The translations under genes were made by a program, and so were the position numbers. Below the pieces are notes generated by a model. It was not told the origin of the DNA and did no database searches. It saw nothing but the letters and a program-made list of their open reading frames with translations. From NCBI GenBank assembly GCA_020432165.1, contig JAGQGU010000024.1, positions 1 to 50,977 on the forward strand: a stretch of DNA of 50,977 nt, written 5' to 3'. Each line of letters begins with the position of its first letter. The stretch's first letter is position 1. The stretch is from Thermomicrobiales bacterium (lineage in GTDB: Bacteria > Chloroflexota > Chloroflexia > Thermomicrobiales > UBA6265). Below, piece by piece: positions 47,244 to 50,229 of the stretch.

Positions 47244-47582
47244 GTGCGGATGAGGTTGTTAATGCGTCGTTCCTGCAAATCGCTTGTGCCTCTCTTCATC
47301 GCCGTCCTGGGCATCCTGGTCGGCCACGATGTCGTGATGGCGATGGATCCGCATGAAGTGAGTGTCGCTTCCCATCACGAGCGCGCGGTGCCGCAATGCG
47401 GACCAGATTACCACTCCGCCAGCCAGGCCCGATTGCCACTACTCCCCATCAGTACGGTCCCGACCATGCTTGCCATGCATGTGGTCATGTCATATGCGGT
47501 TGATTCCGCTGTACCGGACCAAATCACCACTATCGGCGATGCCTCGCACCTGCGAGCCCTGCTGCAGGTCTTTCTGATTTAG
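47244..47582 (+). CDS. Small membrane-anchored HDVxMA/RALLQV protein, copy 1
   Basis: Not a family I know. Predicted 112-aa protein: basic N terminus, one hydrophobic helix (about 15-30) ending in GHDVVMA, then a His/Met-containing outer part with HH and CGP, and the C-terminal motif RALLQVFLI. The same three landmarks recur in the protein encoded at 48347-48706 (AHDVLMA, CGP, RALLQVYLN), so the two are paralogues. The GTG at 47244 is preferred because AGGGG lies five bases upstream; ATG at 47250 is an alternative. It is followed by an exported DUF305 gene. Probably faces the outside of the membrane and may bind metal, an inference from His, Met and Cys content. Confidence 0.6.
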   Translation: MRMRLLMRRSCKSLVPLFIAVLGILVGHDVVMAMDPHEVSVASHHERAVPQCGPDYHSASQARLPLLPISTVPTMLAMHVVMSYAVDSAVPDQITTIGDASHLRALLQVFLI

Positions 47583-47651
47583 CCTCACAGATTTCCCTTT
47601 TCATCCGTTGTTCCGTCGGCATGCTTTCGTACACGCATGCTCTCTGTGAGG
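47583..47651 (+). promoter_or_regulatory. RNA structure that can mask the DUF305 ribosome site
   Basis: CCTCACAG (47583-47590) can pair with CTGTGAGG (47644-47651), and the latter contains the Shine-Dalgarno GAGG of the next gene. Between them GCATGC pairs with GCATGC (47619-47640). Ribosomes finishing the upstream gene stop at the base of this stem and would open it, giving translational coupling. Confidence 0.45.
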
Positions 47652-47660
47652 TATTCCATC

Positions 47661-48287
47661 ATGATTTCCCGCCGTACCTTTATTGCTGCTTCGGCCTTTG
47701 CGGCGCTGTCCGCTCCACGGATCGCCCACGCATCATGTGGAGCCAATATGTCCACACCCGTGGCCACCGATATCGATTCTCCTTATACGATTGAGCAAGC
47801 CTATCTGGATACCACGATTCCGTATCACAAGAGCGGTATCGCCCTGGCCACGATTGGTCTGGAGGATATCGAAGACGATCGGATATTGGAGGTGACTCAA
47901 TCGATTCTCGATACCTTCCCCGCCGAGATTGAGGAACTCCACGCCCTGCGCAAGGACATTCTCGGTGAGGCTGAACCCGAGGATCCTGACCGAGAGATGA
48001 TGCTGCTCGCGATGGGTGGTGTGGAAAGCTGCACCGATGAAACGCATATGGACTTTATGCGCAGCGAATGGGTTGCCGAGAAATATGCCGGCCAGGATGA
48101 CAAGCCGTTTGCCTATGTGAGCATGATGGTGTTGTTGCTGGAAATGGAGATGCACCAGCATATGGTGGCCGAACAGCTGAGCGATAACGAAGATCTGCTC
48201 GCCTTCTGCACCCGTATGCATGAGCTGCGCGATCCACAAATCGCTGTCCTGAAAGAAGTTCGTGGGGAGCTGATCTCGGCGTATTAG
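47661..48287 (+). CDS. Exported DUF305 protein, copy 1 (diverged)
   Basis: Predicted 208-aa exported protein. Twin-arginine-like signal MISRRTFIAASAFAALS, with a cut near AHASCG. Two DUF305-like halves (about 44-105 and 145-205) can be seen. The first has IPYHKSGIALA where the family has PHH; the second has lost the PHH motif but keeps MHQHM (164-168). DUF305 proteins form helical, ferritin-like bundles and are often linked to copper or iron. The ATG at 47661 has GAGG nine bases upstream; an ATG eight codons before is less likely. Paired with the small protein upstream. Confidence 0.75.
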   Translation: MISRRTFIAASAFAALSAPRIAHASCGANMSTPVATDIDSPYTIEQAYLDTTIPYHKSGIALATIGLEDIEDDRILEVTQSILDTFPAEIEELHALRKDILGEAEPEDPDREMMLLAMGGVESCTDETHMDFMRSEWVAEKYAGQDDKPFAYVSMMVLLLEMEMHQHMVAEQLSDNEDLLAFCTRMHELRDPQIAVLKEVRGELISAY

Positions 48288-48320
48288 GCTACCGGCTCTC
48301 AATATCCTGTACTATGGAAT

Positions 48321-48337
48321 ATACCCATATGGGGTAT
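48321..48337 (+). promoter_or_regulatory. CsoR-like operator (ATACCC / GGGTAT)
   Basis: ATACCC and GGGTAT form an inverted repeat around five bases, in the context ATACCCATATGGGGTATGG. CsoR-family copper operators have G/C tracts flanked by just such A/T ends. It lies ten bases before the start codon of copy 2 of the small protein and overlaps its ribosome site region, so binding would block expression. Confidence 0.45.
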
Positions 48338-48346
48338 GGAGTTGGT

Positions 48347-48706
48347 ATGCATTGGCGCACCTACAAGGAACAGGCAACAATCGCCGCGCATATTGCGGTG
48401 ATAGTTCTTGTGTCCCTCCTTGCCCATGATGTCTTGATGGCCGCAGGCGTGCATAGCACGTCTCCGGAAAATCATCACGAGTTACTGAACAAAGCTCATC
48501 ATGCAGCAGCTGATGAATCTGCGGATTGTGGTCCGTTCGAGGGCTTGAACCAGGCTCCTCCACATTTCTCTGTGAGTGCAGTACCCTCGTCCATTGATTT
48601 CATGCCGCTGTTCCATCTTCCATGCATCTCTGGCGAGTCCGATTTGGAGGTACCTCCACAGGATGCTTCGACACGGCGCGCTTTGTTGCAGGTGTATCTG
48701 AATTGA
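48347..48706 (+). CDS. Small membrane-anchored HDVxMA/RALLQV protein, copy 2
   Basis: Predicted 119-aa paralogue of the protein encoded at 47244-47582. One hydrophobic helix (about 9-25) ends in AHDVLMA. The outer part is His-rich (NHHELLNKAHHAA) and has CGP and a second Cys (LPCISG). The end is RALLQVYLN. The ATG at 48347 is chosen because GGAG lies six bases upstream; an ATG eleven codons earlier lies before the operator-like repeat and has no ribosome site. The next gene encodes a DUF305 protein 52 bases on. Metal binding outside the membrane is inferred from composition and the CsoR-like site. Confidence 0.6.
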   Translation: MHWRTYKEQATIAAHIAVIVLVSLLAHDVLMAAGVHSTSPENHHELLNKAHHAAADESADCGPFEGLNQAPPHFSVSAVPSSIDFMPLFHLPCISGESDLEVPPQDASTRRALLQVYLN

Positions 48707-48758
48707 TCGATCGTCATCGTAGCGTCTCCGATTCGATTAATTCCAGAAGGATCATCCC

Positions 48759-49466
48759 ATGAATACACTTTCCCGACGTTCTGTCGTTGTAATGGCAGGT
48801 GTCAGTGCCTTGGCATACGCGCGGCTCTTTGCCCAGAGTCATGAAGGCCATCACGGTAGTGATGACTCCGCCGTGTGTACCGCCGGCACACCGATACCGA
48901 TTATTCCGGTAACTTCCGATATCCCGTTCGATCTTGCCTATATCGATACCATGATTCCCCATCATTCCAGCGTTATCGCGCTTTCCGAGCGCGCGATAGG
49001 TGAGCTCAAGGATGGCCGTCTTGTTGAGATCGCTCAGGCTGTGCTCGATACCCAGCCAGGCGAGATTGAGCAGCTAAAGTCGTTTCGTGCGGAATGGTAT
49101 CCCGATGAACCGGTAGAGATCTCCGATGATCGCATGATGGAGATGATGATGGTCACCATGGCTGGTTCTATGGATGGCTGCACTCCCATGGACCATGCAT
49201 CCATGATGGACACTGATTCTGATATGGATCACATGGTGTTGATGGATAGTGAAGCGATCGTGAAGGCGTTCGAGAACGCCGATAACAAGGATCTCTCCTT
49301 CATCGACCTGGTAGTACCGCATCACCAGATGGCTGTTCGCCAGAGTCAGGTGGGTTTGGAACTTGCTGAGCATGATGAGTTGCGTGCGTTGCTAGACGAT
49401 GTGATAGCCGCACAGACTGCCGAGATTGAAGAACTCCTTGCAATCCGCGAGGAGATTGAAGGGTAG
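48759..49466 (+). CDS. Exported double-DUF305 protein with Met/His-rich linker, copy 2
   Basis: Predicted 235-aa exported protein. Signal with SRR (MNTLSRRSVVVMAGVSALAY), then a His-rich start of the mature part (SHEGHHG). Two complete DUF305 halves carry PHH at 67-69 (YIDTMIPHHSSVIALSE) and 187-189 (FIDLVVPHHQMAVRQSQ). Between them, residues 125-162 form a Met/His/Asp-rich linker (MMEMMMVTM, HASMM, MDHMVLMD). Methionine-rich runs of this kind often bind Cu(I) outside the cytoplasm. GAAGGATC lies before the ATG. Second gene of cassette 2. Confidence 0.82.
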   Translation: MNTLSRRSVVVMAGVSALAYARLFAQSHEGHHGSDDSAVCTAGTPIPIIPVTSDIPFDLAYIDTMIPHHSSVIALSERAIGELKDGRLVEIAQAVLDTQPGEIEQLKSFRAEWYPDEPVEISDDRMMEMMMVTMAGSMDGCTPMDHASMMDTDSDMDHMVLMDSEAIVKAFENADNKDLSFIDLVVPHHQMAVRQSQVGLELAEHDELRALLDDVIAAQTAEIEELLAIREEIEG

Positions 49467-49518: not shown

Positions 49519-50229
49519 TCATCCGATTTCGCGTCGATCAATCGCCATCTCTGCGGGTAGAGTCATGGTCACTTCACCGCGTGCCTTCTGCACGTAGCTA
49601 TCCAGATCATCCTCATCCATCTCGCCAATGATCAGGCTGCTAACCATGCCATCCGGATTGATGATGTAGGTCATGGGGAAGAAGGTGATGTTGTAATTCT
49701 GACTGATGGTGCCCATGGTGACACGATCGCCGCTGGCGTCCCTGCCGATCGGATAAGTGACACCGAACTCGTCCGCGAAGGCGCGGGCGCGATCCTCGGT
49801 ATCCTGCTTGGAACCGATACCGATAAACATCACGTCATCGGGTGCATTCTCCCAGTAGGTCTGGAATGCGGGCATCTCTCGTTGGCAGGGTTCGCACCAG
49901 CTGCCCCAGAAGTTCACGATCACCACCTTGCCGCGCTGATCGCTGAGCGTAATCTCATCGCCAGCGAAGGTCTGCAGGGTGAAATCGGGTGCTTCCTTGC
50001 CGACCGCTGGCGAATCGACCTCGTTGACGCTACTGTCGTCGCCATCGTCACTGAACCACCATTGATACGCACCGATACCCAGCACAATGGCTATCAATAC
50101 CGCCCCCAGCGCCCAGCTGGATGTACGCTCATTGCGACCGTAACCGATGCGGCCACGTTCGTCCTGGCTCTCTTCGGTGTCAGCGAGCGTCGGTTCCGGG
50201 GAATCATGTTCGGGTGGGACTGATGACAT
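49519..50229 (-). CDS. Membrane-anchored TlpA/ResA-like thioredoxin
   Basis: Predicted 236-aa protein: acidic cytoplasmic N terminus, one membrane helix (about 40-57), then an extracytoplasmic thioredoxin domain. The active site is WCEPC (111-115) in VVIVNFWGSWCEPCQREMP, and the cis-Pro segment is ITFFPMTYIINPDG. Such proteins reduce disulfides outside the membrane, for example in cytochrome c maturation or copper delivery to CuA oxidase. It lies 12 bases after an anchored unknown gene, and convergent to the DUF305 cassette. A role in that metal module is possible but unproven. Confidence 0.85.
   Translation of the reverse strand: MSSVPPEHDSPEPTLADTEESQDERGRIGYGRNERTSSWALGAVLIAIVLGIGAYQWWFSDDGDDSSVNEVDSPAVGKEAPDFTLQTFAGDEITLSDQRGKVVIVNFWGSWCEPCQREMPAFQTYWENAPDDVMFIGIGSKQDTEDRARAFADEFGVTYPIGRDASGDRVTMGTISQNYNITFFPMTYIINPDGMVSSLIIGEMDEDDLDSYVQKARGEVTMTLPAEMAIDRREIG

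Follow-up and report, generated by a model that had tools for sequence, protein, structure and literature searches.

Candidate export-coupled regulatory leader peptides of copper-binding DUF305 genes in a Thermomicrobiales bacterium

Copper-sensing nascent chains and the DUF305 cassettes

When CruR was reported, no copper riboswitch had been described (PMC9426467); the post-transcriptional switches known for copper are nascent-chain leaders, CutF and CruR. CutF of Rhodobacter capsulatus is a nascent exported copper sensor in which copper binding delays export and opens a stem-loop over cutO; once conjectured to be a chaperone, it proved to regulate how the following gene is translated (PMC9973294). 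CruR of Bordetella pertussis, a DUF2946 protein, carries the sequence RAPP, at which copper relieves arrest, and it acts via Rho termination (PMC9426467). Arrest in vitro has been reported for CruR, and also for RAPP proteins of S. lividans that are encoded upstream of metal genes (PMC12992588).

On the + strand of the window (the whole 50,977-nucleotide stretch of Thermomicrobiales DNA that was analysed) lie two cassettes in tandem, S1-DUF305-1 and then S2-DUF305-2, in keeping with the duplicated two-gene cassette described in an earlier note. The features, including those around the ribosome-binding (Shine-Dalgarno, SD) sites, are as follows.

47244..47582, + strand: S1, first leader ORF; start GTG 47244 or ATG 47250; stop TAG
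47553..47582, + strand: S1 C-terminal motif RALLQVFLI and stop, the candidate arrest/sensor end; invariant Q, near-invariant R and L, variable third codon positions
47582..47652, + strand: S1/DUF305-1 hairpin, beginning at the S1 stop; arm 47582-47591 (GCCTCACAGA) against 47643-47652 (TCTGTGAGGT)
47661..48287, + strand: DUF305-1, exported; PF03713 at 28.3 bits; start picked from the SD TGAGG at 47647-47651
48322..48336, + strand: CsoR-type operator TACCCATATGGGGTA; consensus TAC-X9-GTA with C/G tracts; 10 nt between its end and the S2 ATG
48347..48706, + strand: S2, second leader ORF; frame open from 48314, best start ATG 48347; stop TGA
48677..48706, + strand: S2 C-terminal motif RALLQVYLN and stop
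48697..48750, + strand: S2/DUF305-2 hairpin; last S2 codons (TCTGAATTGATCGATCG) against the stretch adjoining the DUF305-2 SD (CGATTCGATTAATTCCAGAAGG)
48759..49466, + strand: DUF305-2, exported; PF03713 at 87.4 bits; two intact PHH motifs

S1 comprises a basic N-terminus, a single hydrophobic helix, GHDVVMA, HH, CGP and the C-terminal RALLQVFLI, while S2, whose ATG at 48347 has a GGAG at 48338, five nt upstream, carries AHDVLMA, HH, CGP and the C-terminal RALLQVYLN. The two align at 32% identity with (G/A)HDV(V/L)MA, HH, CGP and RALLQV(F/Y)L in common, the same shared motifs that the earlier note had listed, and a search within the genome with S2 as the query retrieves S1 at E=1e-3. Neither protein has a match in Pfam or NCBIfam, and for these two collections the description of the family as new holds.

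Both downstream genes encode exported DUF305 proteins, as had been proposed: against the PF03713 cut-off of 27 bits DUF305-1 passes narrowly and DUF305-2 clearly. They share this family with CopM of Synechocystis, a copper-binding resistance protein (PMC4335983), but fall under the NCBIfam CopM equivalog cut-off of 90 (21.6 bits for DUF305-1, 64.6 bits for DUF305-2), and DUF305-1 lacks the HH motifs. Its HH motif is degenerate (PYHKS; second repeat LEMEM), and DUF305-2 retains PHH twice; because of this loss DUF305-1 may now differ from DUF305-2 in how it binds copper. The DUF305 signal peptides looked at (window 47661-47730 and 48759-48830; loci L006 and L008) show twin-arginine-like signals in the genus of the window, namely SRRTF in DUF305-1, SRRSV in DUF305-2, and SRRSL. 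CutO also has such a signal. The DUF305 proteins of relatives are Sec- or lipoprotein-type in appearance. Convergent with DUF305-2 lies a gene for a redoxin/thioredoxin-like anchored protein (49519-50229, - strand), and a redoxin/thioredoxin-like gene likewise lies 3' of the cassette at L006 in the relative G156.

S1 and S2 resemble CutF in being small exported leaders directly before the gene of an exported copper protein, with metal ligands beyond the helix, a stem-loop that covers the next SD, a conserved C-terminus and a downstream protein with a possible Tat signal. They differ from it in having no CxxxC, no proline-rich end and no Pfam DUF2946 match, and in preceding DUF305 rather than a multicopper oxidase. 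The likeness to CruR consists of a first ORF before a copper gene that carries an N-terminal export signal, as in CutF, and a C-terminal peptide motif; the differences are that S1 and S2 have neither RAPP nor CxxC, and that Rho termination operates there whereas SD masking is indicated here. Neither S1 nor S2 matches DUF2946 (PF11162) in Pfam at E<=1, and two relatives do so weakly (0.038 and 0.21). A RAPP or proline-rich stall motif is absent from S1, and S2 has only VPP 15 residues from its end. Neither protein contains the CxxC/CxxxC copper motif; each has one conserved Cys (in CGP) and HH. Membership of DUF2946 was rejected on these three grounds. Because the layout is nevertheless the same (an exported leader, ligands outside, an end for the tunnel, a masked SD), we favour the reading of S1 and S2 as export-coupled regulatory leader peptides of copper-binding DUF305 genes that would work like CutF and CruR, and we consider it probable.

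The conserved peptide end and its RNA pairing

Relatives were gathered in three ways: a protein-level search through 158 genomes of the class, a DNA pattern (C-terminal motif plus stop), and the open frames upstream of DUF305 genes whose loci had been assembled without regard to the leader. The leader ORFs diverge in length and in their middle part, but their ends are alike and lie directly at the stop codon, with the consensus RRALLQVF(L/R)(N/I). Among 26 non-redundant leaders, Q at -5 is present in 26/26, R at -9 in 24/26 and L at -6 in 23/26, a conservation that is somewhat overstated, many of the counted leaders having been recognised partly by the C-terminal motif. Variants of the end include ALLQVFRN, ALLQVYRI, ATLQVWRI, ALLQIFRV, AFFQVYRI, SVLQVWRM and VVLQRFLL. 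The strict motif closes 28 of 39 leaders as against 1 of 361 other open frames (~390 kb, same genome; these controls include a 340 kb contig stretch of the window's genome), and the DNA pattern finds matches in 8 of the 158 genomes, against 1 match for a reversed control pattern. The likeness of S1 and S2 is therefore beyond chance. Third positions of the motif codons vary, so the alignments indicate that selection is on the leader peptide and not on the RNA alone; an RNA element only was ruled out on this ground. Also retained in the leaders are an H at the membrane exit, which in the family of the window forms part of HDxxM, together with the HH stretch and a single C.

An AlphaFold2 model of the S2 leader has one confident helix (4-37), a short C-terminal helix (67-73) and a disordered middle (pLDDT 51-57). 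The outer part is the least conserved, and conservation is found in the nine C-terminal residues, which abut the stop codon. Such a predicted structure would suit a leader peptide rather than a folded receptor. Of the earlier description of the small proteins as anchored, the single helix stands; membrane anchoring is uncertain, as HDVLMA could be a signal-peptidase site.

In the S1 transcript, CCUCACAGA pairs with UCUGUGAGG, the ribosome-binding site of DUF305-1 (hairpin arm CCTCACAGA). The hairpin is clear (-24.1 kcal/mol, z -2.8, with 0 of 200 shuffles as good) and leaves the DUF305-1 SD 1% unpaired (p 0.02); an ordinary terminator was ruled out, no U run following the hairpin. The S2 hairpin is weak when taken alone (z -0.5; duplex no better than permuted partners). 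The design TTTCTGAAT against (A)TTCAGAAAGG is seen again in G155 and in both copies of G156, and an arm in the last codons, UUUCUGAAU against (A)UUCAGAAAGG, is found there and, more weakly, in S2. G136, G147, G097, G092 and G115 use other sequences, with the arm elsewhere in the last codons or in the first 14 nt past the stop, and several loci (G135, G152, G117) have no SD complementarity. Across 29 Chloroflexota loci the leader-end/SD duplexes average -16.4 kcal/mol against -13.7 kcal/mol for permuted partners (P=5e-5, a property of the group of loci and not of each locus), and the excess persists in 25 non-redundant loci (P 1.5e-4). No such excess is seen in 61 ordinary gene pairs that were drawn from the genome of the window and have gaps of 40-130 nt (-10.9 vs -11.8), and the leaders differ from these pairs at p=9e-6. 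When the leader end is covered, as by a ribosome at the stop, the SD is freed more than in shuffles (p=9e-5). Masking of the next ribosome-binding site by the end of the leader ORF, a feature of the CutF/CruR layout, is thus indicated as a group property.

Such complementarity would also serve simple translational coupling, in which translation through to the last leader codon exposes the DUF305 SD with neither metal sensing nor arrest. We consider this unlikely: coupling has no need of a peptide end that is conserved while its third codon positions vary, of an export signal or of His/Cys residues, and the gaps of 50-120 nt are long.

Neighbouring genes and the copper link

Within the class, a leader precedes 17 of 24 assessable exported-type DUF305 loci and 0 of 23 anchored-type loci (Fisher p 1.3e-7, the subtypes being our own classification from N-terminal sequences). 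A recognisable leader is absent from 7 of the 24 exported genes, and the anchored subtype is usually preceded by a different one-helix protein. Homologues beside DUF305 in other genomes, on which the earlier note had staked its proposal, are thus found, leaving it unrefuted on that count. The same type of leader stands 5' of a cupredoxin gene in G446 and of a gene for a Metal_resist-like exported protein in G152; less clear cases are G142, before a polysaccharide deacetylase gene, and G157, 300 nt from a sortase-like gene. As the downstream gene changes while the leader C-terminus stays, the leaders are not DUF305-specific partners. In G155 two consecutive DUF305 genes stand behind a single leader, and in G156 two cassettes are divergently oriented. 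The leader-like ORF at L032 (G142:C107, stop at 1530) ends in RALLQVFLI but has CHAAIVA in place of HDxLMA; it lies 5' of an SH3/polysaccharide deacetylase gene and divergent from an HMA-like protein.

A profile scan of the genome contigs with alignment A3 returned only 4 confirmed loci, and a profile search of 400 genomes of the phylum gave few matches because the leader family is short and divergent; the exact motif pattern did better. No leader was found at Rubrobacter DUF305 loci, and a phage collection held no DUF305 match.

The conserved adjacency to DUF305, the one helix and an outer part bearing His/Cys are what speak for the earlier note's central proposal, that the anchored small protein is a partner or receptor (or, in a variant, a copper chaperone) of its DUF305 protein. 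This proposal is not borne out and we hold it to be quite improbable: the outer part is poorly conserved and predicted to be disordered while the conserved end sits at the stop codon, other genes take the downstream place in relatives, one leader stands before two DUF305 genes in G155, and the RNA design masks the SD. CutF was likewise first guessed to be a chaperone and later found to regulate translation (PMC9973294).

The metal link proposed in the same note fares better and becomes specific to copper, through the CsoR-type operator before S2, the relationship of DUF305 to CopM, and the csoR and copper genes found around relatives. The sequence TACCCATATGGGGTA at 48322-48336 agrees with the CsoR type-2 operator consensus TAC-X9-GTA (PMC3902906) and would be bound by CsoR, for which the genome has one gene, with the C..H..C ligand positions. 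Exact TACCC-N4-GGGGTA sites occur in the 3.2 Mb genome at S2 (48322) and at one other place, 57 nt 5' of the gene for a two-HMA-domain CopA-type copper ATPase. Of the 76 boxes in the family, 28 have a csoR gene within 500 nt, which validates the box. It also precedes the leaders in G156, G147 and G100; ~0.003 boxes would be expected by chance in the family's leader promoters and three are seen. There is no CsoR box before S1 or before most relatives.

That the leader monitors protein export (Sec/Tat capacity) in the manner of SecM or ApdA, and not copper, is very improbable, for although an export signal with a C-terminal motif is the SecM/MifM/ApdA layout (PMC10987492) and DUF305 proteins in the genus have twin-arginine-like signals, the downstream genes encode metal proteins and not sec/tat/yidC, and the leaders have the conserved H, HH and C and the CsoR operator.

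For the favoured copper-sensing leader, we propose the following mechanism. The ribosome would make the leader, whose helix would enter the Sec pathway, and the His/Met/Cys-bearing part would emerge outside the cytoplasm, where it could bind copper. In the exit tunnel, RRALLQVF(L/R)(N/I) would slow or arrest the ribosome at or near the stop codon in dependence on copper and/or the pulling of export, the sign of which we leave unspecified. The held ribosome would cover the RNA arm that otherwise hides the DUF305 SD, as the complementarity found in silico suggests, and DUF305 would be translated. Transcription of cassette 2 would additionally be under a CsoR-type copper repressor, whose operator is seen in the sequence. 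DUF305 would probably be switched on in response to copper.

Actinobacterial look-alikes and significance

Of 12 actinobacterial plasmid loci, 7 have a gene annotated as DUF6153 (PF19650), which stands for a small exported protein, immediately 5' of DUF305; in 3 further loci (L106, L108, L111) a look-alike that is unannotated or labelled hypothetical takes this place. CopC, CopD or copper ATPase genes often adjoin. The unannotated DUF6153-like ORFs before DUF305 on Leifsonia and Kineococcus plasmids (L111, end 1598; L106, end 1451) finish in LVLQVLRI and IHLCVIRI at the stop codon. DUF6153 ends at the stop codon (RAPPDLAELQLLRI, LAQLSVLRV, LVLQVLRI, LQLLRI) resemble the Chloroflexota LLQVFRI, and on C-terminal motif scoring 8 of 10 actinobacterial ends are bettered or equalled by <=2 of 728 control ORF ends; the Herbiconiux and Arthrobacter ends fail. 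At three Streptomyces loci the LQLL codons are complementary to the DUF305 SD, and over the ten actinobacterial loci the leader-end/SD duplex test is not significant as a group (p 0.25). In Rhodococcus (L109, L113) a very strong GC hairpin (GGTGACCCACGTCAAGTGGGTCACC) lies a few nt past the DUF6153 stop, not at the SD.

Several DUF6153 proteins contain RAPP, whereas S1 and S2 do not. S1 and S2 have no Pfam DUF6153 match, and two relatives give values below the cut-off (G142, 2.5e-4; G093, 0.0018). Profile-profile comparison (hhalign) of the Chloroflexota leaders with DUF6153 returned a probability of 2%; with this failure common descent is not claimed, and homology of the two is unproven. A tblastn search with a composed probe, which Pfam recognises as DUF6153, found no plasmid and is not counted as evidence. 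SLIV_16130 of S. lividans is a RAPP peptide encoded ahead of a metal gene, and its arrest has been demonstrated (PMC12992588); from much-alike Cys/His spacings we infer that it is a DUF6153 protein. More tentatively, and at somewhat less than even odds in our judgement, RRALLQVF(L/R)(N/I) at the stop codon would be a new, RAPP-independent arrest sequence, and the Chloroflexota leaders and DUF6153 would form one large, export-coupled class of copper-sensing nascent chains controlling DUF305 and other copper genes.

Chloroflexota members were scarce in the CutF survey (PMC9973294). The leaders described here form an unnamed family in this phylum with an end motif unlike those of CutF and CruR, and with its position right at the stop codon arrest is directly testable. 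They suggest what the Pfam orphan DUF6153 may do and offer a possible answer to how exported DUF305 genes are controlled.
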